DNA from: Bacteroidales bacterium
GTDB taxonomy: Bacteria > Bacteroidota > Bacteroidia > Bacteroidales > Muribaculaceae
Length of the DNA: 62,602 nucleotides
Reading direction: 5' to 3'
NCBI GenBank assembly: GCA_910575615.1
Contig: CAJTEX010000017.1
Span: 1-62,602 of the forward strand
Part shown: positions 6,476 through 61,880 of the stretch, one piece after another
How positions within the stretch are numbered: the stretch's first letter is position 1
Layout: the number at the start of each line of letters is the position of its first letter
Program-made: the position numbers and the translations under genes
Notes under the pieces: model-generated
The model's database searches: none
What the model was told of the DNA's origin: nothing
What the model saw: only the letters and a program-made list of their open reading frames with translations

Positions 6476-6907
6476 TCAACGCCGGCGCAGGAGCAGAGCA
6501 GCCACCCATGGCGACACACAGGCCGAGAGCATAGCCCCCGCGCCGTCGGCGAGGAAGTCAAGCATGTCGCATCCGCGGCCAAGCCCCATCCACGACTGCA
6601 ACAGCTCTATCGCGCCACCGAAAAGAGTGGCGCAGGCCGCCATGGCCAGCAACGGTATGAGTGAGCCACAACGGGGCATCTCACCCGTCTGCTCGTAACG
6701 GCGCTGATGCAAAAGCTCGCGGTCGACGACGAGCGCGAACACGAGACCGCCGAACATCAGGGCATGGGCAATCTTGTCGGCATGTTCAAACAGCCCCACC
6801 TCGGGGTCGGGCAGCGGATTGGGGGCGAGCGTAAGCCATAGGATGGCGATCACCACCACCGACGAGAACAGGCCGGGACACATCTGCGTGAGATATTTCT
6901 GTAGCAT
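6476..6907 (-). CDS. VanZ-family membrane protein
   Basis: A small inner-membrane protein with four predicted transmembrane segments. The pattern LTLAPNPLPDPE after the first helix, then FEHADKIAHALMFGGLVF, and further on FGGAIELLQSWMGLGRGCDMLDFLADGAGA is characteristic of VanZ-like proteins, which in Enterococcus contribute to teicoplanin resistance but have no known enzymatic role in Bacteroidota. The start is placed at the ATG at 6907 (MLQKYLTQM, 143 residues) because the longer frame would begin inside the promoter's -7 box (6935-6942). The gene is monocistronic. Confidence 0.85.
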   Translation of the reverse strand: MLQKYLTQMCPGLFSSVVVIAILWLTLAPNPLPDPEVGLFEHADKIAHALMFGGLVFALVVDRELLHQRRYEQTGEMPRCGSLIPLLAMAACATLFGGAIELLQSWMGLGRGCDMLDFLADGAGAMLSACVSPWVAALLLRRR

Positions 6908-47239: not shown

Positions 47240-48964
47240 ATGTCTAAAACCGTCCCATTCCCGATGACGTTTCTCAACCGCCTGAAAACTCTGATGCTCT
47301 CCGCCACCGCCGCCGGTGTGGCGGCTTTCACGGCCGACGCAGCCCCGTCGGTGCTGACCCTCTCGCAATACCCCAACGATTCCACCATCATCCTGCCCGA
47401 AAGTTTCGAGACCGACACCCACAATATGATGGAAAACTGGTATCTCCAGAACTACACGGCCCTTGACGCTGATGTCGACCGCAAACCTGACGAGGAGGTC
47501 TCCGACGAGGAGATAACACGCCGCCTGGCCGCCATCCCGACCACCATCGAGATGCCGTTCAACTCCATCGTCAGGGCATACATCGACGCTTACACCAAGA
47601 AGAACCGCCGCCTTGTAGAGAACATGCTCGGCATGAGCCTCTACTATATGCCGATTTTCGAGCAGGCTCTCGAAAGGGAGAACCTGCCTATGGAGCTGAA
47701 ATACCTCCCGGTGATCGAGTCGGCCATGAACCCCGACGCGGTGTCACGCTCTGGAGCCACCGGCCTATGGCAGCTGATGCTCGCCACAGCCCGAGGCTTC
47801 AACATGGAGGTCAACACCCTCGTAGACGAGCGACGCGACCCGGTGGCCTCCTCGGCGACCGCCGCCAAGCTCCTCAGGCAGCTCTATGACATATACCACG
47901 ACTGGTCGCTGGCCATCGCGGCCTACAACTGCGGCCCGGGCAATGTCAACAAGGCCATGCGCCGATGCACCGCCGAGAAGAAAGACTTCTGGTCGATATA
48001 TCCCTACCTTCCCAAAGAGACACGTGGCTACCTCCCGGGATTCATCGCGGCCACATATGTGATGACATACTACAAGCACCACAACATCTCCCCGGCCCTG
48101 GCAAAGAAGCCGATTCTCACAGACTCGGTGCATGTCAACCGGCGCGTCCACTTCCAGCAGATAGCCGACGTGCTGCAGATTCCCGTGGAGGAATTGAAAG
48201 TGCTGAACCCCCAGTACCGACAGGAATGCATACCCGGCGACCTGCGCCCCTACCCGCTGGTGTTGCCGACCAACCTCACATACTCATACATCATGAGCGA
48301 GGATGCCATCTGCGGCAACAACGCCGACCAGTATGCCCGACGACTGACGGTAGAGCCATCGACCGGCGACTCCGCCCAGGCTGCTCCCGATGGCCAGGAG
48401 GGGGAATGGGTGACATCCGAAAAGACACTGTACCACAAGGTCAAGAGGGGGGAGACCATGTCGTCAATCGCCAAGAAATACGGGGTGTCGCTCTGGAGCC
48501 TGAAAAACGCCAACGGCAATATCCGCACTGCACGACGCGGCCAGACATTGAAAGTCGTGACCACCGAACGCACCTTCAAGCCCAAGGCTCCCGAATCCGC
48601 CTCCCCCGCCGAAGGGGATGACCTGCTGGTGAAACAGGAAGCCCCGCAGGCCGCCACTGAAGACACCACCGCTCCGGCCCCAGTGGCCTCGTCGGTGTCA
48701 GCGGAGACCCCGGCAGCCCCCGCCGTGAAGGAGACCGCCCCGAAACAGAGCGTGGCCCCCGCCAAGAGCAAGGCGGCTCCCGCCAAAAAGACCGCCTCGC
48801 CCAAGAAGAAACCGGCCACCAAGACCGTCACCGCCAAGAGCGGCGACTCACTTGACCGCATCGCCAAACGAAACGGCACCACCGTCAAGAAACTCAAACG
48901 GCTCAACCGCCTGTCGGGCAACAATCCCATAATACAGCCCGGCCAGAAAATCCGCGTAAAATGA
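47240..48964 (+). CDS. Membrane-bound lytic transglycosylase MltD-like, with two LysM domains
   Basis: Cleaves the glycan strands of peptidoglycan between MurNAc and GlcNAc in the periplasm. The 574-residue product has a signal peptide, an SLT domain (about 105-260) with the catalytic Glu in KYLPVIESAMNPDAVSRSGATGLWQLM, the NCGPGNVNKAMRR motif and GYLPGFIAATYVM, and two LysM repeats (about 396-440, TLYHKVKRGETMSSIAKKYGV; about 530-574, VTAKSGDSLDRIAKRNG) separated by an Ala/Pro/Lys-rich linker. It ends in an overlap with serB (ATGA). Confidence 0.93.
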   Translation: MSKTVPFPMTFLNRLKTLMLSATAAGVAAFTADAAPSVLTLSQYPNDSTIILPESFETDTHNMMENWYLQNYTALDADVDRKPDEEVSDEEITRRLAAIPTTIEMPFNSIVRAYIDAYTKKNRRLVENMLGMSLYYMPIFEQALERENLPMELKYLPVIESAMNPDAVSRSGATGLWQLMLATARGFNMEVNTLVDERRDPVASSATAAKLLRQLYDIYHDWSLAIAAYNCGPGNVNKAMRRCTAEKKDFWSIYPYLPKETRGYLPGFIAATYVMTYYKHHNISPALAKKPILTDSVHVNRRVHFQQIADVLQIPVEELKVLNPQYRQECIPGDLRPYPLVLPTNLTYSYIMSEDAICGNNADQYARRLTVEPSTGDSAQAAPDGQEGEWVTSEKTLYHKVKRGETMSSIAKKYGVSLWSLKNANGNIRTARRGQTLKVVTTERTFKPKAPESASPAEGDDLLVKQEAPQAATEDTTAPAPVASSVSAETPAAPAVKETAPKQSVAPAKSKAAPAKKTASPKKKPATKTVTAKSGDSLDRIAKRNGTTVKKLKRLNRLSGNNPIIQPGQKIRVK

Positions 48965-50193
48965 CCCACGACAACGAACTCATACTCATCAACATATCAG
49001 GCCAGGACAAACCGGGCGTGACCGCCGCCCTGACCTCAATCCTGGCCCGCTACAACGCGATGGTGCTTGACATCGGCCAGGCCGACATCCACCACACCCT
49101 CTCGCTCGGCATCCTGTTCAAGACCACACCCGCCGACTCAGGCGACATTATGAAGGACCTGCTCTTCAAGGCTTACGACATGGGGGTAAAGATTCGCTTC
49201 ACCCCTGTCTCCACCGAGGAATACGAGCAATGGGTCGGACGACAGGGGAAAAACCGCTGGATCATCACCATCCTTGGCCGCCAGCTGACAGCCAGCAACA
49301 TAGCCCTGGTCTCGGAGGTCATCGTAGAGCAAGGACTCAACATCGAGGCCATACAGCGCCTCACAGGCCGCCAGCCTCTGGTCGAAGGCTCGTTTCCCGC
49401 CACTAAAGCATGCATCGAGTTCTCGGTGCGCGGCACCCCCGTCAACCGCTCGGAGATGCAGAGCCGCTTCATCGAAATCTCATCCCGCGAAGGATTTGAC
49501 ATATCGATGCAGGAAGACACGATGTATCGCCGCTGCCGCCGCCTGATATGTTTCGATATGGACTCCACTCTGATCCAGACCGAGTGTATCGACCAGCTCG
49601 CCGAAAAGGCCGGAGTCGGCGACAAGGTGCGCGACATCACCGAGATGGCCATGCGGGGCGAAATCGACTTCCGCGAAAGCTTCACCGAGCGCGTCGCCCT
49701 GCTCAAAGGCCTTGATGTCAGCGTGATGGAGGAAATCGCCGAGTCGCTCCCCATCACCGAGGGGGTCGACCGCATGATGCAGGTGCTGAAACGCGCCGGG
49801 TTCAAGACCGCCATCCTCTCCGGCGGATTCACATTCTTCGGCGAATACCTCAAACGCCGGTTCGGATTCGACTACGTCTACGCCAACGACCTTGAAGTGG
49901 AAGACGGCAAGCTGACAGGCCGCTACGTCGGCGACATCGTCGACGGCAAACGCAAGGCCGAGCTGCTCAGGCTGATAGCCCAGGTCGAGAATGTCAATAT
50001 AGCCCAGACAATCGCCGTCGGCGACGGGGCCAACGACCTGCCGATGCTCTCGGCCGCCGGACTCGGCATCGCCTTCCACGCCAAGCCCAAAGTCAAGGAG
50101 AGCGCCAAACAGTCGATATCGACAATCGGCATCGACGGGGTGCTTTATTTCCTCGGCTTCAAAGACTCTTTCATCGGCGGACCGGCCCGATAA
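48961..50193 (+). CDS. serB: Phosphoserine phosphatase with ACT domains
   Basis: Last step of serine synthesis: removes phosphate from L-phosphoserine. The 410-residue protein has two ACT-type regulatory regions (about 5-85, with ILINISGQDKPGVTAALTSIL; and about 95-175) and a HAD phosphatase domain (about 195-405): motif I CFDMDSTLIQTECIDQLA, motif II AILSGGFTFFGEYLK, motif III with Lys in DIVDGKRKAELL, and motif IV AVGDGANDLPMLSAAGLGIAF. All four are intact. ACT domains suggest feedback control by serine. The start overlaps the previous stop by four bases. Confidence 0.95.
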   Translation: MTHDNELILINISGQDKPGVTAALTSILARYNAMVLDIGQADIHHTLSLGILFKTTPADSGDIMKDLLFKAYDMGVKIRFTPVSTEEYEQWVGRQGKNRWIITILGRQLTASNIALVSEVIVEQGLNIEAIQRLTGRQPLVEGSFPATKACIEFSVRGTPVNRSEMQSRFIEISSREGFDISMQEDTMYRRCRRLICFDMDSTLIQTECIDQLAEKAGVGDKVRDITEMAMRGEIDFRESFTERVALLKGLDVSVMEEIAESLPITEGVDRMMQVLKRAGFKTAILSGGFTFFGEYLKRRFGFDYVYANDLEVEDGKLTGRYVGDIVDGKRKAELLRLIAQVENVNIAQTIAVGDGANDLPMLSAAGLGIAFHAKPKVKESAKQSISTIGIDGVLYFLGFKDSFIGGPAR

Positions 50194-50233
50194 TCCGGCC
50201 CTGCCGGCAACCAACCAGCAACCGACACACGTA

Positions 50234-51601
50234 ATGCCGACCGCACTCTACCATACTTTCGGCTGCAAGCTCAACTTCGCCGAGACCTCGGCCGTGGCCT
50301 CCAGGATGGAGAGCCGCGGCATACGTCGCGCCATAAAAGGGGAAAAACCCGACCTGATATTCGTCAACACCTGCTCGGTGACCGGCGAGGCCGACAAGAA
50401 ATGCCGCCAGGCCATCAGGTCATACAACCGCCGCTATCCCGACGCGGCCATCATCGTCACCGGATGCTACGCCCAGCTCAAGAGCGAAGAGGCCGCCGCG
50501 CTCCCCGGTGTGGCCGTAGTCGCCGGAAACGACAAGAAAGGAATGGTAGACGAGTTTGTCGACAATTACCTCTCCTCGCGCCGCAAACTCGTCGAAGTGA
50601 TTCCTGCCCGCGACATCCGCAGCTTCACCCCGTCATGCTCCCGGGGCGACCGCACCCGATATTTCCTCAAGGTGCAGGACGGATGCGACTGCTGGTGTAC
50701 CTACTGCACCATCCCCGCCGCCCGCGGACGCAGCCGGTCGGCCACCGTCGCCCAGCTTGTCGCCCAGGCATCACGGGCAGCCGCCGACGGAGGCAAAGAG
50801 ATAGTCATCACCGGGGTCAACATCGGCGACTTCGGCAAACGCCAGCCCGACCTCCCCGACGGAGCCCCCCCCGAGACATTCCTCGACCTGGTGAAAGCGC
50901 TCGACACAGTCGAAGGAATCAGCCGCTACCGCATCTCATCAATCGAGCCCGACCTGCTCACCGACGAAATCATCGAATACTGCGCGTCATCAAGGGCATT
51001 CATGCCCCACTTCCACATACCTCTCCAAAGCGGTTCTGACGAAGTGCTGCGCCTCATGCGCCGCCGCTACGACACAGCCCTCTTCCGCGACAAGATACTC
51101 CGCATCAAGCAGCTCATCCCCGACGCGTTCATCGGAGTCGACGTCATGGCAGGCACCCGCGGCGAGACCCTCGACGAGTTCAACCGCTCGCGCGACTTCC
51201 TCGACTCCCTCCCCGTCACCCGCCTCCATGTCTTCCCATACTCCGAACGCCCCGGCACACGCGCCCTGGAGATACCCCACACCGTACCCCAGGAGGAGAA
51301 ACACCGCCGCGTCGAAGAGCTGACGACCCTCTCCAACCGCAAGTTGCGCCAGTTCGCCGAGCAATACACCGCCGCCACCCGCCCCGTGTTGCTCGAACAC
51401 ACCCGTCCGGGCCAGCCCATGTCAGGCTTCACCGACAACTACCTGAAAGTCCGCATCCCCGACGCCCCCCTATCGGCCGACAACCACATCCTCCCCGTCA
51501 CCCTCCTCTCACTCATCACCACCCCCTCAGGCGAAGTCGAGTTCCTCGCCTCCCTCAACCCCTGCCCCCCCGGAAACATCTTTTTTTGCAAAACCGGCTA
51601 A
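50234..51601 (+). CDS. mtaB: tRNA t6A37 methylthiotransferase MtaB
   Basis: Adds a methylthio group at C2 of t6A37 in tRNAs reading ANN codons. The 455-residue radical-SAM enzyme has an N-terminal UPF0004 domain with the three cluster Cys (TFGCKLNFAE, VNTCSVTG, VTGCYAQL), the radical-SAM motif GCDCWCTYCTIPAARGR (C-x3-C-x2-C with an extra Cys), and a C-terminal TRAM-like region (PMSGFTDNYLKVRI). The lengths are normal and the MtaB-type VAGNDKKGMVDEF spacer fits. No neighbour is functionally related; the defence-like cassette begins directly after it. Confidence 0.93.
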   Translation: MPTALYHTFGCKLNFAETSAVASRMESRGIRRAIKGEKPDLIFVNTCSVTGEADKKCRQAIRSYNRRYPDAAIIVTGCYAQLKSEEAAALPGVAVVAGNDKKGMVDEFVDNYLSSRRKLVEVIPARDIRSFTPSCSRGDRTRYFLKVQDGCDCWCTYCTIPAARGRSRSATVAQLVAQASRAAADGGKEIVITGVNIGDFGKRQPDLPDGAPPETFLDLVKALDTVEGISRYRISSIEPDLLTDEIIEYCASSRAFMPHFHIPLQSGSDEVLRLMRRRYDTALFRDKILRIKQLIPDAFIGVDVMAGTRGETLDEFNRSRDFLDSLPVTRLHVFPYSERPGTRALEIPHTVPQEEKHRRVEELTTLSNRKLRQFAEQYTAATRPVLLEHTRPGQPMSGFTDNYLKVRIPDAPLSADNHILPVTLLSLITTPSGEVEFLASLNPCPPGNIFFCKTG

Positions 51602-51620
51602 CGGATTTATAAGCTCAGGG

Positions 51621-51652
51621 TTGGCGTAACTGACTTTTTTTGCGTAAATTTG
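51621..51652 (+). promoter_or_regulatory. Promoter of the ATPase-TOPRIM-DUF262 cassette
   Basis: TTG (51621-51623), 21 bases, TAAATTTG (51645-51652). It is in the short gap after mtaB and gives the three-gene unit its own transcript. An in-frame TTG at 51640, inside this promoter, cannot be a start. Confidence 0.7.
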
Positions 51653-51696
51653 CGGTTCAGGCAACCATCCCCATAATCATCATCAATGATTTTGAC

Positions 51697-52809
51697 ATGA
51701 ACCGCACCCTAAGTTTCACAAACTACCGGATATTCGCCGAAAAACAGGATTTGTCACTGGCTCCCGTCACCGTGGTGTTCGGCAAAAACAATGTCGGCAA
51801 AAGCGCGTTGCTCAAACTGCCGGTGTTGATAAAAAACATCCTGGATGTCAGGAGCCCGAAAGAGGAGCTTTTCAACAAAGCGTCTGACGGGTTGCGTATC
51901 TGTGAAGACTACCGCGATGTGGTTTACGGCAAAGGGTCGCGGGCTGTCAAACTGGGCTTCTCCTTTGAGGGGGGCACAGTAGACCTGAGCTTTTTCGTCG
52001 AGGCCACGGGCAAACCGAGAGTCCATCTTGAAAACCTTTCCGGCACACTCCTCGACGGCACACATATCGACACCCTCGAATCCTTGCCGCCGACAATACT
52101 GTTCGACATAGAATATCTGAAATCCATCCGCGATTTCCCCAAAGACGGATATTTCTCAATGGCCGTGTCTGAAAACGAACCGGTCTCTGGCGGCATGTTC
52201 ACATACCGTCGCCTCGTTGATGACACCCTCAACCACGATGGAGATTTGCTCGCGAGAGTATCAGCCTGGTATAAAAAGACTTTTGACGGATGGGAAATAG
52301 AAGTTGACGCCAGCCGCGACCCGGTTTTCAGCCTGATGCTCCGTCATTCCGACCTGCGCAACAACATCATCGACGGGGGAGCCGGCATCGCGCAGTCACT
52401 CCCTGTCATAGTCAGCGCAGCCACCGAAATATCCTCCCCCCGCCTGTATATCTACGAGGAGCCTGAGACCCACCTCCACCCCGAAGCCCACGGGGAAATG
52501 GCCGAGTTCATCGCCAAGGAAGCAGTCCGCTCCAAAGGCCAGAAAAGCTTCCTGATAGAATCCCATTCCGTCAACTTCATCCTGAGATTGCGGACACTTG
52601 TGGCCGAAGGCAAACTCCCCGACGGATTCCTTGCCCTCTATTATGTCGGCTTCTCTCCGGAAGACAACCGCAGCTCGGCCAGGAAAGTCACGGTCAATCC
52701 CGACGGCACCGTCAAGGGATGGCCTGAAAATGTCTTCAAAGAAACCCTGGAAGAGTCGCTGGCCCTCCGCCGCGCCCAGTTGAAGCGCGAGGAGGAGCAT
52801 GGAGAATGA
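51697..52809 (+). CDS. ABC-type AAA ATPase with DUF3696 tail (candidate defence ATPase)
   Basis: A 370-residue soluble ATPase of the AAA_15/AAA_21 (OLD-like) class. Motifs in order: Walker A FGKNNVGKS (29-36), the signature-like GGAGIAQSLPVIV (about 227-240), Walker B LYIYEEPETHLHPE (about 250-263, catalytic Glu pair), the switch histidine in LIESHS (about 290), and a C-terminal DUF3696 motif with DGTVKGWPENVF (about 335-350). There is no coiled-coil arm of SMC length. Start at ATG 51697, 45 bases after the promoter. It overlaps the next gene by four bases (ATGA), so the two are coupled. By analogy with OLD, Gabija and PARIS, it would sense a trigger and control a nuclease partner; this is inference. 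Confidence 0.85.
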   Translation: MNRTLSFTNYRIFAEKQDLSLAPVTVVFGKNNVGKSALLKLPVLIKNILDVRSPKEELFNKASDGLRICEDYRDVVYGKGSRAVKLGFSFEGGTVDLSFFVEATGKPRVHLENLSGTLLDGTHIDTLESLPPTILFDIEYLKSIRDFPKDGYFSMAVSENEPVSGGMFTYRRLVDDTLNHDGDLLARVSAWYKKTFDGWEIEVDASRDPVFSLMLRHSDLRNNIIDGGAGIAQSLPVIVSAATEISSPRLYIYEEPETHLHPEAHGEMAEFIAKEAVRSKGQKSFLIESHSVNFILRLRTLVAEGKLPDGFLALYYVGFSPEDNRSSARKVTVNPDGTVKGWPENVFKETLEESLALRRAQLKREEEHGE

Positions 52810-53825
52810 AAGTCAGACTGAGCGACGAGATTTTCAGGCATCCCACCAACAAGAGCGATGTCAGCTATCTCATAAAGACAATCATACGCAAACGCCACTC
52901 CATCTCGATTGTATCGGATGTGTCGGCCGACATAAGTTGGCTCGACCCGTCTGACATACAAGTGATTGAAGACTCCATAGCCGCCTCCCTGATTGGCGAT
53001 ATGGAGGAACCCGACTGCAAGGTCATCAACAACGCTGGCAACATCCACGGCGACAAGACATTCAGCGTGAATGAGGCGATAACATACGTCGCGACACCAC
53101 TGGAGATAGTGCTGGAGAACGGAACAAACGACTCCCCGCTGACCCTTGCATGCATACGCTCATACCTGCCATCCGGCTCAGACGCAGTGTCGGCCTACCA
53201 TAAACTGAGACTCGTGTTCGCCACCGGAGGCGGATGCACCAATGTCAAGAACTACCTGGAGGGGAAGGTGGCCCAATATGGCGAACGCTCCAAATTCTTG
53301 CGCCACTTCGTGATCCTAGACGGCGACCGCAGGTATGAAGGCCATGACATCACAAAATATGACTCGCTTATAGCATATCTGCGATCCATAAATGTGAAAT
53401 TCCACATACTTGAAAAGCGGTGTATGGAAAACTATCTCCCCGTGGATTGTTTCCCCGCAGCCGACAAAAACAGAGAATGGCTAAACGCTTTCAACGCCCT
53501 GACACCACGCCAACGCGATTTTTTCAACATCGGAGGCGGATTCAGAGGGGATGTGCCTGAGGGCAGGAAAAAAGAAATAGACTCCTCCGGCGGCAACATA
53601 AAGAGCCTGCTGCCACAGGAGCAACAAGATTTCTACTCTGATGTCACAGACACTAACTTCACGACGCTATCCAAGGGTTACGACCTGCCTTCATTCAAGA
53701 AATCCTTTCCCAAAGGATTTAATGACGGCAAGACAAACCAGACATCCCTGAATGCGTTACTCCAACACCAGGACAACCCCGATGAGCTGAAAGACCTCGC
53801 CTCGACTATCCAGAAACTTTTGTAA
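52806..53825 (+). CDS. TOPRIM/DUF4435-like protein, probable nuclease partner of the ATPase
   Basis: A 339-residue protein with no name I can fix. It has the order of a TOPRIM fold: ATPLEIVLENGTNDSPL with Glu 104 and Asp 109, then HFVILDGDRRYEG with the D-x-D at 172/174, then FHILEKRCMENYLP (203-211), the last two typical of DUF4435-type proteins such as the PARIS effector AriB. The first 90 residues (ISIVSDVSADISWLD) may form an extra alpha/beta part. No membrane segment. The coupled start and the 28-base gap to the DUF262 gene show a single operon. Metal-dependent DNA or RNA cleavage is likely but not proven; a regulatory, non-catalytic role is possible. Confidence 0.65.
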   Translation: MKVRLSDEIFRHPTNKSDVSYLIKTIIRKRHSISIVSDVSADISWLDPSDIQVIEDSIAASLIGDMEEPDCKVINNAGNIHGDKTFSVNEAITYVATPLEIVLENGTNDSPLTLACIRSYLPSGSDAVSAYHKLRLVFATGGGCTNVKNYLEGKVAQYGERSKFLRHFVILDGDRRYEGHDITKYDSLIAYLRSINVKFHILEKRCMENYLPVDCFPAADKNREWLNAFNALTPRQRDFFNIGGGFRGDVPEGRKKEIDSSGGNIKSLLPQEQQDFYSDVTDTNFTTLSKGYDLPSFKKSFPKGFNDGKTNQTSLNALLQHQDNPDELKDLASTIQKLL

Positions 53826-53853
53826 AACCCGGCAAAAGCCATCACATCCCGAC

Positions 53854-55383
53854 ATGCGCACCCAGATTCAGACCCAGATACGTTCCCTATCAAGCCTTCT
53901 CGAAAATCTTCGCGACGGCATAATACAGGTTCCCCCCTTTCAGCGCGAATTTGTATGGACGCGGAAACAGATAGTGGAATTGTTCGACAGCATCAGCAAA
54001 GGTTATCCTATCGGATCAATCATGCTGTGGCGTCCACATACAACCCCTTCCTGGGGCCACGACCGAGGAGTAGGCGGATTCATATTGCCTGACTTGAAAG
54101 AACCTAAATCATATGTGTTGGACGGCTACCAGCGCCTCGCCTCACTGTTCGGATGTCTCAATAGCCCCAAGACATCCGGACTTGAATATGACGAAAATAT
54201 GCGTAAGGGATTTTTCAACCTCTGTTTCGACCTCAAAGACGGGGAATTCATTTATCCCACAGGAGGGTATGCGAAACCTTGGCAGGTTCCTGTCTATATA
54301 CTATTCCGCACAAGCGAGTTCCGGCAATATACCCGTAACATACTTGAGCCTGCTGTTACCGATTCGCAACTCCTCGACATCTATCTCGACCGCGCCGATT
54401 CTTTCTCTCGAATCCTTGTCGAATACAAACTGGCCGTCATAGAAGTGGACGGGGGCACCTTGGAAGATGTCGTCAATATATTCTCCAGGATAAACTCCAA
54501 AGGGACCGATATCTCTGACGAGTGGAAAGTGAACGCGCTAAGTTTCACCGAAGATTTCAATTTCTCAACAGAAATCGAAAATATTATCCGTAAGCTCAGT
54601 TACTACAATTTCGACAAAATATCTTCTGATATCATACTCAAATGCTTTAAGAGCGCATTCGACAACCGGCTATATATTGACACCGACATCAACAGACTTG
54701 CTGAGCGTCCTGATTTCCAACACAATATAAGGAATATGTCGGATGCGATAATAAAGGCTGTAAGTTTTCTGTATAATGAGCTGAATGTCATCGACCTCCG
54801 CCTTCTCCCCGATACAGACCAACTTATCTTCCTGTCGGTATTCTTTATGAAAAAACCTAATCCCTCAAAAGAGAGGATAAGAGACATAATTCGTTGGTTC
54901 TGGATTACGACATATTCCAATTACTTCTCACTCTGTTCCTTATCAAGAAAACGCAAAGCATTCGCCTATTTTCTTGATTATCTCGAAGATTGGTACGATA
55001 CACCACTATACTACCAAGATCCTCGAGAACTTATGAAAACCCAGCCATGGCCAAAGAAACTCTATCTCTCATCGGCCCGCGCGGTGGCTCTCGCGCTGTT
55101 TCAGTTACGCCTTGTCAAAGAGAACTTCGGTGTGCCATCAGTGCGCAGACACCTTGAATGCAGTAAAATATTCAAGCATGTCGACAGCATTCCCGAAAAC
55201 ATGGCGGTCACCTTTGCCGACTCGAATTCAAAAAATCGTTTTCCATATTACGCCCAGATTGACCCCGGCTTCGTCATTATCGACCACGAGGAGATCAACG
55301 CCAGGCTACGCCACCGCCGATACATCCTCAAAGAGCAAGAACGCGACTTCGTGGAAAACCTCGGGCTGACATACACCGATTGA
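53854..55383 (+). CDS. DUF262 protein (GmrSD-type N-terminal domain)
   Basis: A 509-residue soluble protein. The N-terminal DUF262 domain has VPPFQREFVWTRKQIVELFDSI (26-47), GYPIGSIMLWRP and YVLDGYQRLASLFG (87-100), and later IFSRINSKGTDISDEW (about 210-225). DUF262 is the ParB/Srx-like domain found in GmrSD-type, BrxU and related modification-dependent nucleases. The usual DGQQR triad motif reads DGYQR here. The C-terminal half is helical and I do not see the HNH/DUF1524 domain that GmrSD enzymes carry. Codon and base use are clearly more A+T-rich than the neighbouring genes, which hints at recent transfer. Last gene of the cassette. Confidence 0.85.
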   Translation: MRTQIQTQIRSLSSLLENLRDGIIQVPPFQREFVWTRKQIVELFDSISKGYPIGSIMLWRPHTTPSWGHDRGVGGFILPDLKEPKSYVLDGYQRLASLFGCLNSPKTSGLEYDENMRKGFFNLCFDLKDGEFIYPTGGYAKPWQVPVYILFRTSEFRQYTRNILEPAVTDSQLLDIYLDRADSFSRILVEYKLAVIEVDGGTLEDVVNIFSRINSKGTDISDEWKVNALSFTEDFNFSTEIENIIRKLSYYNFDKISSDIILKCFKSAFDNRLYIDTDINRLAERPDFQHNIRNMSDAIIKAVSFLYNELNVIDLRLLPDTDQLIFLSVFFMKKPNPSKERIRDIIRWFWITTYSNYFSLCSLSRKRKAFAYFLDYLEDWYDTPLYYQDPRELMKTQPWPKKLYLSSARAVALALFQLRLVKENFGVPSVRRHLECSKIFKHVDSIPENMAVTFADSNSKNRFPYYAQIDPGFVIIDHEEINARLRHRRYILKEQERDFVENLGLTYTD

Positions 55384-55386
55384 CAT

Positions 55387-56325
55387 ATGAGCGACACCGA
55401 CAACAAAGAGAAGCAGGCCGCCGGCTGGAGATACAAGCTGCTGGGATGGCTGACAGCCGCGATGGCGCGGCTGCCGATGTGGGCGCTCTACGGGGTCGCC
55501 GACCTGCTTTTCGTGGTGCTGTATCACCTGGCGGGCTACCGCCGGAGGGTGGTCAGGGACAACCTCGCCGGCTCGTTCCCCGATAAAGAAGCCGGGGAGC
55601 TGCGGCGCATCGAGCGGCAGTTCTTCCGCAACTTCGCCGACTACATCGTCGAGACCCTGAAGCTCCTCCATGTCACCGACCGCGAGATGAGACGGCGCAT
55701 GACATTCTCAGGGGTCGAGGTCATCGACAAGGCCCTCGCCGACGGCCGTCCCGTGGTCTGCTACTTCGCCCATATCGGCAACTGGGAGTGGGCGCCGTCA
55801 ATCACCCTCTGGAGCCGCCTCCGGGCCGGAAGCGACGCCAAGTTCTGCCAGATTTACAGGCCGTTGCGCAACCGCTGGTTCGACTCCCTGATGCTGCGCC
55901 TGCGCGGACGTTTCGGCGCTGTGTCACTCCCAAAACGCCGCTCATTCCTCGACCTGCTGCGCTACCGCATGGAGGGCATCCCTACGGTCACCGGCTTCAT
56001 GAGCGACCAGAAGCCGAGCCACGGCGACACAATCCATGTGGTCAGCTTCCTCAACCGCCCCACGGCGATAATCACCGGCACCGAGACCGTCTGCCGCCGC
56101 CTTGACGCGCTCCCCGTCTACTGGCGCATGTCGAAACCCTCCAGGGGCCATTACCATATAGATGTGGTCGAGATGAAGGCCGACATGGCCGGGGAATTCC
56201 CCCTTACCGACCTCTACGCCCGCCTGCTGGAGGAGAACATCCGCCAGGATCCCTCCCTGTGGCTCTGGTCACACAAGCGGTGGAAACATCCGGTGACATT
56301 TGAAATGAACGGACAAAAAGCCTGA
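55387..56325 (+). CDS. Lipid A acyltransferase, LpxL/HtrB family
   Basis: A 312-residue inner-membrane acyltransferase that adds a secondary fatty acid to the lipid A precursor. The N-terminal helix spans about 25-45 (MWALYGVADLLFVVLYHLAGY). The catalytic His-x4-Glu motif is CYFAHIGNWEWAPS (His about 122), followed by YRPLRNRWFDSLM, a G-x-x-x-D-Q-x-P region (VTGFMSDQKPSHG), and RPTAIITGTE. All are features of the HtrB family. It begins four bases after the DUF262 stop, so the cassette may read into it. Which secondary chain is added is unknown. Confidence 0.92.
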   Translation: MSDTDNKEKQAAGWRYKLLGWLTAAMARLPMWALYGVADLLFVVLYHLAGYRRRVVRDNLAGSFPDKEAGELRRIERQFFRNFADYIVETLKLLHVTDREMRRRMTFSGVEVIDKALADGRPVVCYFAHIGNWEWAPSITLWSRLRAGSDAKFCQIYRPLRNRWFDSLMLRLRGRFGAVSLPKRRSFLDLLRYRMEGIPTVTGFMSDQKPSHGDTIHVVSFLNRPTAIITGTETVCRRLDALPVYWRMSKPSRGHYHIDVVEMKADMAGEFPLTDLYARLLEENIRQDPSLWLWSHKRWKHPVTFEMNGQKA

Positions 56326-56330
56326 CACCA

Positions 56331-57326
56331 ATGAAACCTGTAGCTGTCATCATACTCAACTGGAACGGAGAGAAGCTCCTCCGCGAGTTCCTCCCATCGG
56401 TCGTGGCCAACACCGACCCCGACATCGCCGACGTGATAGTGGCCGACAACGGCTCGACCGACGGGTCGCGAGAGCTGCTGAGCCGCGACTTCCCGCAAGT
56501 CAGGCTCCTGGCCTTCGACGAGAACCTGGGCTACGCCGGTGGCTACAACCGCGCCCTGCGAGAGACAGGCTACCGCTACACCGTGCTGCTCAACTCCGAT
56601 GTCGAGACACCCCGCGGATGGCTCGGCCCGCTGTATCAGTTCCTGGAGTCACACCCCGACGCGGCGGCCTGCCAGCCCAAGATACTGTCATACAAAGAGA
56701 GACACCGGTTTGAATACGCCGGGGCAGCCGGCGGCTTCATCGACCGCAACGGCTACCCCTACTGCCGCGGACGCATCTTCGACACCGTCGAGGAGGACAA
56801 GGGGCAATATGACACCCCAGCCGAGGTCTTCTGGGCCACCGGGGCAGCCCTCATGGTCAGGACCGACCTCTACACCCTGGCCGGAGGGCTTGACGAACGG
56901 TTCTTCGCCCATATGGAGGAGATAGACCTGTGCTGGCGGCTCAGGCTCATGGGCCACACCCTCTGGTGTGTGCCGGCCAGCCACATCTACCATCTCGGCG
57001 GCGGCTCCCTGCCGGCGGCCAATCCCCGCAAGACCTACCTCAACTTCCGCAACAACCTGCTGCTGCTCCACAAAAACCTTCCCGCCGCCGACCTGCGCCC
57101 CGCCCTGATGCGCCGCCGCCTGCTCGACACGGCGGCATGGGCAAAGTTCATCCTCACCCTCGATTTCCCCAACGCGTCGGCCATCCTGCGCGCCCACCGC
57201 GACTTCCGCCGCATGCGCCGCCACTACACCGCCCATCCCGCCGTCAACCTCCTCGCCTCCACCTCCCGCCCCGACATCCTCATCTCCTACTTCATCAGAC
57301 GCAAGCGCCTTTTCTCCCAACTCTAA
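56331..57326 (+). CDS. Family 2 glycosyltransferase
   Basis: A 331-residue GT-A enzyme. Motifs: VAVIILNWNGEKLLREFLPS at the N-terminus, DVIVADNGSTDGSRELL, GYAGGYNRALRETGYRYTVLLNSDVETPRGWL (with N-S-D as the metal site), ATGAALMVRTDLY, and EEIDLCWRLRLMGHTLWCVP. This is the rhamnosyltransferase/WcaA-like type that extends surface polysaccharide or LPS. No membrane helix. It follows the lipid A acyltransferase by five bases, so a role in LPS is reasonable; the sugar is unknown. Confidence 0.9.
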   Translation: MKPVAVIILNWNGEKLLREFLPSVVANTDPDIADVIVADNGSTDGSRELLSRDFPQVRLLAFDENLGYAGGYNRALRETGYRYTVLLNSDVETPRGWLGPLYQFLESHPDAAACQPKILSYKERHRFEYAGAAGGFIDRNGYPYCRGRIFDTVEEDKGQYDTPAEVFWATGAALMVRTDLYTLAGGLDERFFAHMEEIDLCWRLRLMGHTLWCVPASHIYHLGGGSLPAANPRKTYLNFRNNLLLLHKNLPAADLRPALMRRRLLDTAAWAKFILTLDFPNASAILRAHRDFRRMRRHYTAHPAVNLLASTSRPDILISYFIRRKRLFSQL

Positions 57327-57335
57327 TCCCCCAAG

Positions 57336-59594
57336 ATGCTACTGCTCAACGCCGCCCCCGACTTCGAAGGTCTGATTTCAGACCTCGCCTTCATACTGCT
57401 GCTCGGTGCCGCCGTCACCCTGCTTTTCAAATGGATAAAACAGCCCGTCGTCCTGGGCTACATCGTGGCCGGATTCCTGGCCAGCCCCAACTTCGAGCCG
57501 CTCCCCTCGGTCACCACCGAGGTCAACATCGAGTTCTGGGCCCAGATCGGCATCATAGTCCTGCTGTTCTCGCTGGGGCTTGAGTTCAGTTTCAAGAAAC
57601 TGGTCAACACCGGCGGGTCGGCCGTCGTGACAGCCCTCATAATCGTCACCGGCATGATGGCCACAGGCTTCGCCATCGGCCACCTGCTCGGATTCACCAC
57701 CATCAACAGCCTATTCCTCGGAGGCATGCTCTCCATGTCATCCACCACCATCATAATAAAAGCCTTCACCGACCTCAACCTGCGCCAGAAGAAATTCGCC
57801 TCGCTGGTCTTCGCCGTGCTTATCGTCGAAGACCTCTTCGCCGTGGTCATGATGGTGGTGCTCAGCTCAATAGCCCTCAACAGCTCGGTCGAGGGGGGCG
57901 AGATGCTGATGAGCGTCAGCAAACTCATCTTCTTCCTTGTCATCTGGTTTCTGGTGGGGGTCTACATCCTCCCCTCCCTCCTCAACAAGACCCGCAGGTT
58001 TCTCAACAACGAGACCCTCCTGGTGGTCTCCATGGGCCTCTGCCTCTCGATGGCCGTCTTCTCCGTGCTGTGTGGGTTCTCGCTCGCCCTGGGTGCCTTC
58101 GTCATGGGCTCCATCCTCGCCGGGACAAGCTACGCCGAGCGCATCGAGCATGTCACCATGCCGGTCAAAGACCTCTTCGGCTCGGTGTTCTTCATCTCCG
58201 TCGGCATGATGGTGCAGCCAGCCATCCTCGTCCAGTACTGGTGGCCGATACTGCTGCTGTCGGCGGTCGTGATCGCGGGCATGATAACATTCGGCACCTT
58301 CGGCATGCTCGTCACCGGCCAGCCCCTAAAGGTGGCCATGGAGTCAGGCTTCTCGCTGACCCAGATAGGTGAGTTCGCCTTCATCATCGCCTCGCTCGGC
58401 ATGAGCCTCGGGGTGCTGAACGCCGAGATATACCCCATCGTCGTGGCCGTATCGGTCATCACCACATTCACCACCCCCTACTTCATCCGCATGGCCGACC
58501 CCGCCTACCGGCTGGCCGAACGCCATCTGCCCCCAAGGCTCCACTTCCTGATCGACCGCTACTCAGACGACGCCTCACAGAATGCCGGAAACGAGAACCG
58601 CCGCGCCTGGGCCGCCATGCTGCGCCGCTACCTCTGGCGCATCATGCTCTACTCCATCCTGCTTATTGCCATCTCCCTGGCCGGCGACCGATGGCTGCGC
58701 CCCATCCTCGACGGGATAATACCCGCCTGGGGACGCCTGCTGACCACCATCCTTACCCTCACGGCGATGGCCCCCTTCCTGCTCGCCCTCATCCTCCCCC
58801 CGCCGATGAACAGCTCCGACACCGCCTCGCGCCTCCATGCAAGCCAGCTCAAAGTGCCACGGGTCGTGCTGATGCTCTTCAGGATGCTCATAGCCCTCGG
58901 CTTCATCATCCACACCATCTCCTCGGCCTACACCCTGCGCCTTGGAGTCCTCATCGGGCTGGCCATCTTCATACTCCTACTGCTGACGCTCAGCCGCACA
59001 CTCAACACCCGCCTGCGCAACATCGAGGCCCGGTTTCTCGACAACCTCAACGAGCGCGACCTGCGCCGCTCGGGCAAGAACAACACCCTGGTCAGCGACC
59101 TCCACCTGGCCTACATCCATGTCGGCTACGGATGCCCGTTTGTCGGCGACCGCCTGAAAAACACCGACCTGCGCGGACGCTACGGCGTGAACGTGGTGAC
59201 CATACAGCGCGGGCCGGCCACCATGATCGTCCCCTCCGGGGAGACACGCATCTTCCCCGGCGACACCATAGGCGTGATCGGCAACGACGACCAGATTTCG
59301 GCCGTCCTCCCCGTCATCGAGGCCGAGGCCGACCCCACCCAGGACCAGAACGCCTCGCAGCCCTCCGACCTCCGCCTGACATCGATCATGCTCACATCTG
59401 CCTCCCCCCTGGCCGGCCAGACCCTCGCCTCGGCCGACGTGCGCCGCAACTACAACACCCATGTCGTGGCCCTGCGCCGCGACGGAGAGTTCATCGACCG
59501 CCCCGCCTCCATGCCCCTGCGCGAGGGCGACCGCCTCTGGATCGTGGCCCCCGACTCAGTCACCGCCACCCTGCTCGCCGGGCGGCCCGACTGA
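57336..59594 (+). CDS. CPA2-family cation:proton antiporter with two TrkA-C domains
   Basis: A 752-residue inner-membrane protein. Residues 15-390 are the monovalent cation:proton antiporter-2 domain (KefB/KefC-like) with about 12 helices, including VVLGYIVAGFLASP, GIIVLLFSLGLEFSFKKL, SMSSTTIIIKAF and GFSLTQIGEFAFIIASLGMSLG. A second membrane block with four or five helices follows (about 430-555). The cytosolic C-terminus has two RCK_C (TrkA-C) domains (about 588-660 and 675-750; each ends in a GD-x-x-x-V/I pattern). No RCK_N (NAD-binding) domain is present. Probable role: potassium or sodium export and pH balance. It follows the glycosyltransferase by nine bases. Confidence 0.9.
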   Translation: MLLLNAAPDFEGLISDLAFILLLGAAVTLLFKWIKQPVVLGYIVAGFLASPNFEPLPSVTTEVNIEFWAQIGIIVLLFSLGLEFSFKKLVNTGGSAVVTALIIVTGMMATGFAIGHLLGFTTINSLFLGGMLSMSSTTIIIKAFTDLNLRQKKFASLVFAVLIVEDLFAVVMMVVLSSIALNSSVEGGEMLMSVSKLIFFLVIWFLVGVYILPSLLNKTRRFLNNETLLVVSMGLCLSMAVFSVLCGFSLALGAFVMGSILAGTSYAERIEHVTMPVKDLFGSVFFISVGMMVQPAILVQYWWPILLLSAVVIAGMITFGTFGMLVTGQPLKVAMESGFSLTQIGEFAFIIASLGMSLGVLNAEIYPIVVAVSVITTFTTPYFIRMADPAYRLAERHLPPRLHFLIDRYSDDASQNAGNENRRAWAAMLRRYLWRIMLYSILLIAISLAGDRWLRPILDGIIPAWGRLLTTILTLTAMAPFLLALILPPPMNSSDTASRLHASQLKVPRVVLMLFRMLIALGFIIHTISSAYTLRLGVLIGLAIFILLLLTLSRTLNTRLRNIEARFLDNLNERDLRRSGKNNTLVSDLHLAYIHVGYGCPFVGDRLKNTDLRGRYGVNVVTIQRGPATMIVPSGETRIFPGDTIGVIGNDDQISAVLPVIEAEADPTQDQNASQPSDLRLTSIMLTSASPLAGQTLASADVRRNYNTHVVALRRDGEFIDRPASMPLREGDRLWIVAPDSVTATLLAGRPD

Positions 59595-59945
59595 CCGTCC
59601 CTCCAGGCATACCCGTCACAGCTGCCGTGGCCAACTCTGCGACACCTCCCCATACGATTTTTCATTATGCCGTTTTTTTTCGATTTTTTTTGGAAAAAAG
59701 TTGCATGGATGATTTTTTTCACATACTTTTGCGTTGTGTATCGCTTGCTACAACTTTAACGCTATGGTTTTAACATTTCGACTTTTCGGAATACACATGG
59801 TAAAATTCATACGGTTTTAAAGGTAATTTCAAACCAACGGTTTACATTTGACAAAGTCAGACTCGCGAACGACAACAATTGCTAAGTGATTTATATAAAT
59901 CAGACTTACATGAAAGAGAATTACTCATCTATTAACCATATCTCT
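59595..59945. other. Promoter and leader region of the secreted-protein gene
   Basis: 351 bases, A+T-rich after about 59660. It holds the promoter (59701-59731) and then a leader of about 200 bases without clear structure. Two in-frame ATGs (59886, 59910) precede the signal peptide but add a charged extension, so they are not used. No other gene. Confidence 0.5.
59701..59731 (+). promoter_or_regulatory. Promoter of the secreted-protein gene
   Basis: TTG (59701-59703), 20 bases, TACTTTTG (59724-59731). Both boxes and the spacing fit the Bacteroidota consensus. Confidence 0.7.
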
Positions 59946-61880
59946 ATGAAGAAAAGTTTTACCCTTAAAGCTTTTGCTTTCGGAGCCGCCGCCACTGTGG
60001 CACTCACCGCATCGGCAACTCCCCACGAGTTCCTCAAAGCCAACAACGAGCCTGTGGCCGTAAAGGCTGACTTCAAGCAGGAGGCCCCCGCGCCCATCCG
60101 TATGTCTGCGAAGCAGCTCGACTCAAACGCCTCCAAAGCTCCCGCACAGAAGGCTGAACCCTCCTATGGCGGCTGGGATCAATCCGGCGAAGGCACATAC
60201 ACTTTCGTGCAGATGACCAGCAAAAAGGTCAACTATAACTACCAGCGTTGCGAAGATACCGCCAACCCCGGCAACTTCAAAGTAAAAGTGGCCGATTGGG
60301 GAAAAGGCTTGTTCAGTAATACAGGCACCGAGCTTGAATTCACCGTTGCGAAGACATCCTTTCTCTTTGGCGAAGAGACAGAGGAGACTATGGCGCCCAC
60401 TCTTCCTGCCGGAGGTGTTCCCACAGGACATAAGGCAACCGGATATCCCGACGGTCAAGCGCATGACGTGTATCTCTTTGACCGCGTCAGCTGGATGAAG
60501 GCCCTCCAGGCCGCAGGCGAGACCTGGGACGACGGCACCCCCATCACAGATGCTCAATGCGAACAGTGGTACGCCCTCTACGACTTTGACGATGTCTCCG
60601 GAAAACTCACTTATTTCCCGATTTACTGCCTGGTTGTGGACAACAAACCCACTTGGTTCACATTCCCGTCAAGCTCAGGTTCAGGCGCCAGCACCGTCTA
60701 TTATACCGAATCCTACCAGATGAAAGGCAACGGGTACAAAAACTACGACCTCGACCTCAACATCAGCGCAGGCTACTTCAGCCATGAGAAAGACGCCACC
60801 ACCGGAACTTTCAACTTCACATACGACATCAACGACAACAATGAAGTATGGTTCCAGATATTGACCGGCAAAAAAACCGGCTCAGCTCTCCAAAGCGCGA
60901 TGCAGGAACTCTTGAAAAAGGCTTACAACAACGACCTCTCCGATGGCATCGTGAAATTGACAGCAAGCTCCGGCGAAGTAAACGTGCCCGTATCAAGCTA
61001 TCGCAAAGGCCAGTACACATTGCTGTGCGCTGCCAGATATCCCGGCATCGAAGAAGGCTACTTCCTTACAAAAAGCAACAACACCCTGCGCCTGTTACAG
61101 GAAGATGTCGACTTCTATTCGGCAGGAATGGCTTCATACACTGATGCCACCATGTACGACGCTCTGCCCGTAGTCTTCGGCGCAGAAAGCTACGAAGAAC
61201 TGTGTGCCATGTTCATGTCAGAACTTCAGATTACACTTCCCGAGGTTTACACTGTAACTGTGCCGATGCAGGCAAACTCAGCCAATGAAGGTGAGTACCG
61301 CCTCGTTCATCCCTACATGGAATACTTCAACAACTACCTCTCCCAGTCACTCGAATATGACATCATGTCAGACTTCCTCATGTTCAACGTGGCTGACCCC
61401 AACAAGAGCTTCATCAGCCCCTCTGCCACCGGTATCTACTTCCCGACAAAATCCAGCGGTGAGATCATGATGGTCTACGGCTCCACAAACAAGATGCAGG
61501 GTGGATCACTCGCCTCTGCAGACGTATGGGGAACCCTGGCCAACGGAACCCTCTCCTTCCCCGAGGTTGTGGTGCCTGACGGAGCTACCTCACTTGACGA
61601 GGTCATCGCCCCCCTCGGCTGGAGCCAGGCTTCTTTCAGCTCTGAAAGCGGAGCCATCACATACAAGAACCACACCAACCCTGTGGTTAGCCCCGAGATC
61701 TGCAAAATCGTGTCTGACGGATTTGCCGGAATCGAGAACGTCGCAGCCGACGCAGAGTTCGACGCCAACGCTCCTGTCGAGTACTTCAACCTCCAGGGTA
61801 TCCGCGTCGCCACTCCCGAGGCAGGCCAGCTCCTGATCAAGCGTCAGGGCAACAAGGCCACCAAGGTCATCATCCGCTAA
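59946..61880 (+). CDS. Large secreted protein with YFNLQGIRV C-terminal tail, unknown function
   Basis: A 644-residue exported protein. The ATG at 59946 starts a signal peptide (MKKSFTLKAFAFGAAATVAL then TASATPHEF). The mature part is rich in beta structure, Thr, Ser, Asn and Tyr, with no domain I recognise: after a short Ala/Lys-rich region comes YGGWDQSGEGTYTFVQMTSKKV, a type of repeat also seen in other Bacteroidales surface proteins. The last 40 residues, from APVEYFNLQGIRVATPEAG to KVIIR, form a tail that also ends the pseudogene at 14631-14971 and probably directs export or anchoring, perhaps by the T9SS encoded at 29.6-36.7 kb. Own promoter and terminator. Confidence 0.8.
   Translation: MKKSFTLKAFAFGAAATVALTASATPHEFLKANNEPVAVKADFKQEAPAPIRMSAKQLDSNASKAPAQKAEPSYGGWDQSGEGTYTFVQMTSKKVNYNYQRCEDTANPGNFKVKVADWGKGLFSNTGTELEFTVAKTSFLFGEETEETMAPTLPAGGVPTGHKATGYPDGQAHDVYLFDRVSWMKALQAAGETWDDGTPITDAQCEQWYALYDFDDVSGKLTYFPIYCLVVDNKPTWFTFPSSSGSGASTVYYTESYQMKGNGYKNYDLDLNISAGYFSHEKDATTGTFNFTYDINDNNEVWFQILTGKKTGSALQSAMQELLKKAYNNDLSDGIVKLTASSGEVNVPVSSYRKGQYTLLCAARYPGIEEGYFLTKSNNTLRLLQEDVDFYSAGMASYTDATMYDALPVVFGAESYEELCAMFMSELQITLPEVYTVTVPMQANSANEGEYRLVHPYMEYFNNYLSQSLEYDIMSDFLMFNVADPNKSFISPSATGIYFPTKSSGEIMMVYGSTNKMQGGSLASADVWGTLANGTLSFPEVVVPDGATSLDEVIAPLGWSQASFSSESGAITYKNHTNPVVSPEICKIVSDGFAGIENVAADAEFDANAPVEYFNLQGIRVATPEAGQLLIKRQGNKATKVIIR

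Follow-up and report, generated by a model that had tools for sequence, protein, structure and literature searches.

A Muribaculaceae member of the candidate defence system PDC-M55: an OLD-type ATPase, a probable stand-alone TOPRIM protein and a DUF262 protein without DUF1524

Contig 17 of a Bacteroidales genome (Muribaculaceae; assembly GCA_910575615.1, 3.13 Mb in 89 contigs) is the 62,602-nucleotide stretch analysed here, which we call the window. It carries three adjacent plus-strand genes, A, B and C, between an mtaB-like gene and an acyltransferase gene. The cassette is a member of PDC-M55, a candidate defence system listed in PADLOC-DB 2.0.0 (2023): its three models match the three adjacent genes one for one. 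We propose, with a probability of roughly 55%, that this PDC-M55 member combines a split OLD/TOPRIM nuclease, which its ATPase restrains, with a DUF262 nucleoside triphosphatase (NTPase) serving as sensor or licence, and that it likely acts against phages. The features are as follows.

51621..51652, plus strand: promoter-like element TTG-N21-TAAATTTG, read in the gap between mtaB and A (motif counts and conservation)
51697..52809, plus strand: gene A (PDC-M55A), encoding an OLD-type ABC ATPase of 370 amino acids whose tail resembles DUF3696 (family models, alignment)
52806..53825, plus strand: gene B (PDC-M55B), which probably encodes a stand-alone TOPRIM nuclease of 339 amino acids (PDC-M55B model, alignments, profile comparison)
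53854..55383, plus strand: gene C (PDC-M55C), DUF262/GmrSD_N NTPase without DUF1524, 509 amino acids (Pfam, PADLOC, alignment)
50234..51601, plus strand: left flank, mtaB-like gene (named by the sequence-only reading and from the protein)
55387..56325, plus strand: right flank, acyltransferase gene (named by the sequence-only reading)

The sequence-only reading of this DNA, made by a model before our analysis, took the three genes for a likely anti-phage unit and knew of no named system with these parts. At the catalogue level the latter was wrong, because the PDC-M55 models match all three genes one for one (A to PDC-M55A at 5.3e-67, B to PDC-M55B at 3.3e-27, C to PDC-M55C at 5.0e-77), and we found no difference between the cassette and that entry. 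The next best PADLOC matches are NsnB for A (1.8e-35) and HEC-05 (4.6e-21) and then NsnA (1.3e-11) for C; B has none. We take the Nsn proteins to be those of Menshen. According to PMC11811056, which like the other papers cited here is drawn on in excerpt, PDC systems are unpublished candidates of Payne et al. Our literature search, whose scope excluded supplements and preprints, found no paper that names PDC-M55 and none that we recognised as describing an ATPase-B-DUF262 trio.

The conserved neighbourhood in other genomes that the sequence-only reading proposed as its own test does exist. Loci found by B alone number 16 after removal of duplicates: the window, G012, G013, L038-L045, L006, L024, L025, L035 and L106, where L040 is Vibrio, L044 is also G387, L024 is G313, L025 and L035 both belong to G368, and L106 is Nonomuraea. 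The genes stand in the order A-B-C on one strand in 15 of these 16 loci, which cover Bacteroidota, Vibrio, Nonomuraea and one viral contig, at least three phyla. The exception, L035 (8122-9188), is a contig-end fragment without C. Two of the 15 trios are broken: C is split in two frames in L045 (9062-10719), and the 5' part of B lies in another frame in L025 (8036-9000). Family models and the 15 further loci, 14 of them with A, B and C, rule out a chance run of open frames. By source, B was found at ten loci in GTDB contigs, at one in IMG/VR and in one plasmid record, the last an 11.85-Mb Nonomuraea record with the complete trio; phage records gave no B, and a search with the Vibrio DNA as query gave no trio in E. 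coli. The pairwise distances of A, B and C correlate over 11 loci (r 0.88, 0.83 and 0.75; none of 2000 permutations as high), a result that common descent would give as well.

This linkage bears on an alternative in which A and B alone would be a PARIS-like alarm and C an independent passenger resembling type IV restriction. Two observations speak for it: the ATPase and the TOPRIM protein of PARIS are likewise separate proteins (PMC10568477, PMC12409363), and DUF262 proteins resembling C also occur without A and B (L138, L137). However, C directly follows B in 15 of the 16 loci, overlapping it by 4 bases in seven of them, and does not itself carry a DUF1524 nuclease; we consider the passenger explanation improbable.

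The cassette is an insertion between housekeeping genes, as the sequence-only reading had supposed. The acyltransferase gene is present in 14/14 genomes of the genus, and in all 11 cassette-free genus-mates it is the neighbour of mtaB, within about 60 bases or overlapping (the acyltransferase starts are extrapolated in this measurement; the gap in L053 is about 14 bases). The cassette lies between the two genes in the window and in G013; in G012 it precedes the acyltransferase gene, and the contig stops on the mtaB side. Between the window and G013, A, B and C are 65%, 53% and 60% identical, against 82% for mtaB and 76% for the acyltransferase. The greater divergence of the cassette could come from rapid evolution of a defence unit, from recombination or from separate gains, which these figures do not tell apart. 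GC content is 54.5% in A, 50.5% in B and 46.1% in C, and 59-65% in the neighbouring genes. By eye, the open reading frame list of 48000-60000 holds no integrase- or transposase-like frame, and a carrier mobile element was therefore set aside. Another housekeeping-gene junction is used in Flavobacterium, where L043 (6622-10594) and L044 (6482-10435) have the cassette between two genes resembling topoisomerase IV subunits, which we take them to be.

Defence genes adjoin at least four of the 15 trio loci: directly 5' of A lie type I restriction genes in L040 and L006 and PDC-S02 genes in L039 and L044. The count is a lower bound, as PADLOC was run on 10 flanking proteins chosen by eye, of which eight matched; the ATPase-like neighbours in L025 and L035 gave no PADLOC match. 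In L040 (916-10384, Vibrio renipiscarius), the end of the restriction gene and the start of A share base 6608, and the type I restriction set and the trio look as if they were one operon. Together with the three PADLOC matches, these neighbours agree with the anti-phage role that the sequence-only reading had thought likely.

The same data bear on a different function, namely a housekeeping, DNA-repair or anti-plasmid module instead of anti-phage defence. Several copies stand among housekeeping genes, as judged by eye, and JetD, an anti-plasmid protein, resembles OLD TOPRIM domains (PMC10568477). Yet the unit is patchy: B occurs in three of 99 relative genomes, and, although the PDC-M55B model matches 12 of 395 genomes of the phylum, a stand-alone B is found in four and the full unit in four (own genome included in each count). 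Its lower GC content, its divergence beyond that of its flanks in G013 and the restriction genes beside some copies also speak against such a module, which we regard as very unlikely.

Within the window, the three frames lie where the sequence-only reading had placed them. A and B overlap by 4 bases (ATGA, 52806-52809), a gap of 28 bases separates B from C, and the acyltransferase gene begins 3 bases beyond C. The promoter-like element described earlier is present, with TTG at 51621, N21 and then TAAATTTG at 51645-51652. The looser motif TTG-N19..23-TAnnTTTG occurs seven times on both strands of the 62.6-kb window, and with only seven per window a chance match in the 95-base gap between mtaB and A is unlikely. 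By eye, a TAnnTTTG box precedes A in four of 11 other loci compared (L036, L038, L044, L045) and was not seen in the other seven, including the same-site relative L037 (G013). The start of A is most likely the ATG at 51697 rather than the TTG at 51640, given the position of the -7 box (51645-51652) and an alignment of the family that opens at the equivalent methionine, which is nearly invariant over 12 rows.

From its sequence, gene A is identified as an OLD-type ABC ATPase. The ABC-ATPase motifs noted earlier are borne out by 12 rows, in which G29-K-N-x-x-G-K-S36, G228, G230, L235-P236, E254-x-P-E-x-H-L-x-P262 and H290-S291 are invariant or at least 90% conserved. Pfam finds AAA_15/AAA_21 in A, and the protein matches the OLD nuclease structure 6p74 (1.4e-9). 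The DUF3696 tail that had also been claimed stands in part: in the window it scores 15.3 bits, below the cut-off of 22, and all 12 A-family proteins match DUF3696 at E up to 0.1 (best 1.1e-8) as they match AAA_15 and AAA_21. The NsnB match covers residues 4-353, and the match to the AriA model (4.6e-14) is far weaker than that to PDC-M55A. The 14 M55A rows cluster together in an ATPase tree (support 86), lying with NsnB in a wider group (support 86, not starred) apart from most sampled OLD ATPases; the tree is a quick one with long branches and modest supports, and left out L013, L016 and the OLD rows L068, L069, L075, L078 and L081.

ATPases of this family are more widespread than the trio. 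At E up to 1e-15, the M55A model has matches in 62 of 390 phylum genomes, and in 13 loci read with ATPases matching it the neighbours are not B or C. OLD ABC ATPases are reported to be paired with TOPRIM, HNH, PD-(D/E)XK or PIN nucleases (PMC12839542). A by-eye reading of PIN nucleases beside other M55A-type ATPases was dropped after Pfam PIN matched none of nine small neighbours scanned. In L143, L145, L146, L147, L151 and L155, an M55A-related ATPase stands with a small neighbour that starts with a D-T-N motif and has no Pfam match. L145, L146, L147 and L151 also hold a gene resembling RNA ligase (Pfam RNA_ligase, 7e-29, in L147, the only one scanned).

Gene B is probably a stand-alone TOPRIM nuclease, a reading we favour because it has an invariant acidic motif that lines up with that of OLD TOPRIM domains. 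All 12 B proteins match the PDC-M55B model, and E104, D109, D172, D174 and E208-N209-Y210-x-P212 are invariant in both the 7-row and the 12-row alignments, giving the E-x4-D and D-x-D pattern of TOPRIM type. The sequence-only reading had pointed to E104, D172-x-D174, E203 and the E-N-Y-x-P motif; all of these held except E203, which is alanine in two rows of the 7-row alignment. When B is aligned to OLD TOPRIM domains, E104 falls on the TOPRIM glutamate, D109 on the consensus-aspartate column, GG142-143 on the TOPRIM glycine and D172-x-D174 on D-x-D. A profile of the 12 B proteins scores 83% against 20 OLD-like TOPRIM regions (E 8.4e-6, 170 columns), while decoys from the A and C families give 0.1% and 4.5% and 20 shuffled profiles at most 0.39%.

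A further likeness is to single-chain ATPases with an OLD-like TOPRIM match. The PDC-M55B model weakly matches single-chain frames of 533-651 amino acids in eight of its 12 matched genomes; five such proteins were scanned, and all combine an AAA_15/AAA_21 ATPase with a match to OLD-like TOPRIM, and in the single-chain ATPases of L011, L012 and L013 the M55B match lies over or beside the Pfam OLD-like TOPRIM match. The B profile scores 86% against seven single-chain ends, a value that is partly circular because the PDC-M55B model itself selected this set, in which three of the seven rows share 87-93% likeness. The E-N-Y-x-P motif is common to B and this single-chain group only. The other family named by the sequence-only reading, DUF4435 (PF14491), was set aside, as Pfam matches it in none of the 12 B rows. 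The B profile scores 53% against 25 DUF4435 regions, which we read neither for nor against it, since the OLD TOPRIM and DUF4435 profiles have a mutual score of only 67%.

Gene C is identified, again from its sequence, as a GmrS-like DUF262 NTPase without an HNH nuclease domain. GmrSD_N (DUF262) matches C at 4.3e-26 and is found in 11/11 C proteins, and the N-terminal half of C matches the DUF262 structure 7p9k (5e-18), which we take to be BrxU. The FQREFVW and DGYQR motifs singled out earlier hold in the family, with R31-x-F33-x-W35 and D90-G91-x-Q93-R94 invariant in 11 rows. The sequence-only reading had allowed for one or two nucleases, and C as a second nuclease was discarded: Pfam finds DUF1524 in none of the 11 C proteins, the C-terminal half of C scores 0.15% and the whole protein 0.07% against a DUF1524 profile (as a positive control, two subsets of DUF1524 rows score 98.6% against one another), and six or more histidines stand in no column across the 11 rows. 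In a DUF262 tree, 13 M55C rows fall in a group of 15 (support 91) with two other DUF262 proteins, and NsnA lies elsewhere, among other DUF262 proteins; this tree is likewise quick with long branches, has rows from 28 of 30 fetched loci, two pairs of them identical, and excludes the broken C of L045.

The two additional proteins of that group lack A and B: L138 stands alone, and L137 is in an apparent type I restriction locus. In L137 (3579-11127), the M55C-related DUF262 gene has the restriction gene on one side and the genes for modification and specificity on the other, an arrangement resembling that of TgvAB, a tested pair of DUF262 proteins inside a type I cluster of Vibrio cholerae (PMC12409362). 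The genome of the window itself holds three further DUF262 frames (one with GmrSD_C), one DUF4435 protein and one OLD-like TOPRIM protein (G000:C26:28877-31865, G000:C21:1089-1466, G000:C5:38403-39008, G000:C15:7601-7789).

From the parts, their order and their conserved residues we infer how the unit may work. A and B would correspond to an OLD-type enzyme divided over two proteins, A supplying the ATPase and B, probably, the TOPRIM nuclease, and A together with C would form the sensing part. What C reads may be a phage protein or some property of the incoming DNA; in the latter case a base modification is most likely, in line with reports on GmrSD, BrxU and GrwAB. A would keep B inactive, and during infection B would be freed or assembled through NTP turnover in A, in C or in both. 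B, which would be the only nuclease of the unit, may then cut DNA or tRNA and halt the infection, though probably with the death of the cell.

This model, in which C senses or licenses, A gates and B cuts, follows precedents in PARIS, DUF262 proteins and GrwAB. The split A-B pair suggests the logic of PARIS, in which the TOPRIM effector AriB is kept inactive by AriA until AriA senses a phage protein and, once released, cuts tRNA (PMC12409363). DUF262 proteins are described as NTPases with a possible regulatory role over a nuclease, modified cytosines being what GmrSD and BrxU act on; Menshen, Dazbog and PD-T4-2 carry DUF262 without DUF1524, and mutation or deletion of the DUF262 gene abolished resistance in Menshen and Dazbog (PMC10952713). 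Similarly, GrwB, a DUF262 protein with no DUF1524, is needed beside the nuclease in the modification-dependent GrwAB, and its DUF262 arginine is essential (PMC12137116).

Several points weigh against the model. The sensing of modified DNA by C and the gating of B by A are analogies. As for B, none of its 12 proteins has a credible Pfam match, DUF4435 included (scattered single matches, E 0.03-0.35), it has no match among solved structures either as a single sequence or as a profile, and AriB matches none of the 12 rows at E up to 1, the library being assumed to hold an AriB model. When L075 and L078, OLD rows that the PDC-M55B model also matches, are removed, 18 TOPRIM regions remain and the profile score falls to 37% (E 3.6e-4, 75 columns) on the same motifs, and among the five single-chain proteins only one has its TOPRIM match above the Pfam cut-off. 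In addition, most loci lie between housekeeping genes and, as judged by eye, outside large defence islands.

The nearest tested systems are PARIS and Menshen, and the cassette fails one defining feature of each. Like PARIS (AriA-AriB), it has an OLD-type ATPase and a TOPRIM-like protein as two adjacent genes; unlike PARIS, its B has no AriB match, its A matches AriA only weakly, and a DUF262 gene is added. It shares an ABC ATPase and a TOPRIM-type acidic motif with OLD nucleases and Gabija GajA, which differ in being one chain; no helicase partner is among the cassette genes. OLD classes 1-3 have ATPase and TOPRIM in one chain, and the two are split in a proposed class 4 (PMC10568477). With GmrSD, BrxU, GrwAB and TgvAB it has in common a DUF262 domain with QR and DG-x-QR motifs, whereas C lacks DUF1524 and its partners are an ATPase and B.

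Menshen (NsnA-NsnB-NsnC) also has a DUF262 protein and a related OLD-type ATPase of similar length. The cassette might be a divergent Menshen, the same pair with a third subunit too diverged to recognise. The NsnB and NsnA matches of A and C and the larger ATPase group joining NsnB and M55A favour this, as does PMC10952713, which gives a Menshen component an OLD TOPRIM domain. That assignment is at odds with our three NsnC-model matches (L020-L022), which show no TOPRIM signal (0.47% against OLD TOPRIM); L020 also has no Pfam match. Against a divergent Menshen, B is unrelated to NsnC by profile (0.24%, with an NsnC profile of three sequences), NsnC is matched neither by B nor anywhere in the genome of the window, M55C is apart from NsnA in the tree, and the order here is ATPase-B-DUF262, while that of Menshen is DUF262-ATPase-NsnC (L027-L029). 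Membership in Menshen was set aside on the third subunit and the gene order, and we give the divergent form little credence.

More tentatively, and at well under even odds, PDC-M55 might be a hybrid, in which a nuclease-free DUF262 sensor of modified or invading DNA licenses a separate TOPRIM nuclease through an OLD-type ATPase. If true, the hybrid would join modification-dependent (type IV) restriction to a PARIS-type alarm, and one ATPase family would serve different effectors: B here, NsnC in Menshen and the small neighbours in other M55A-type loci. With this work, the anonymous catalogue entry PDC-M55 becomes a concrete, testable machine with its likely catalytic residues named. Sister genomes show the site unoccupied, and homologues to choose from are available in at least three phyla. 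The result also bears on the relation between Menshen and PARIS, as a single ATPase family apparently works with more than one kind of third subunit.

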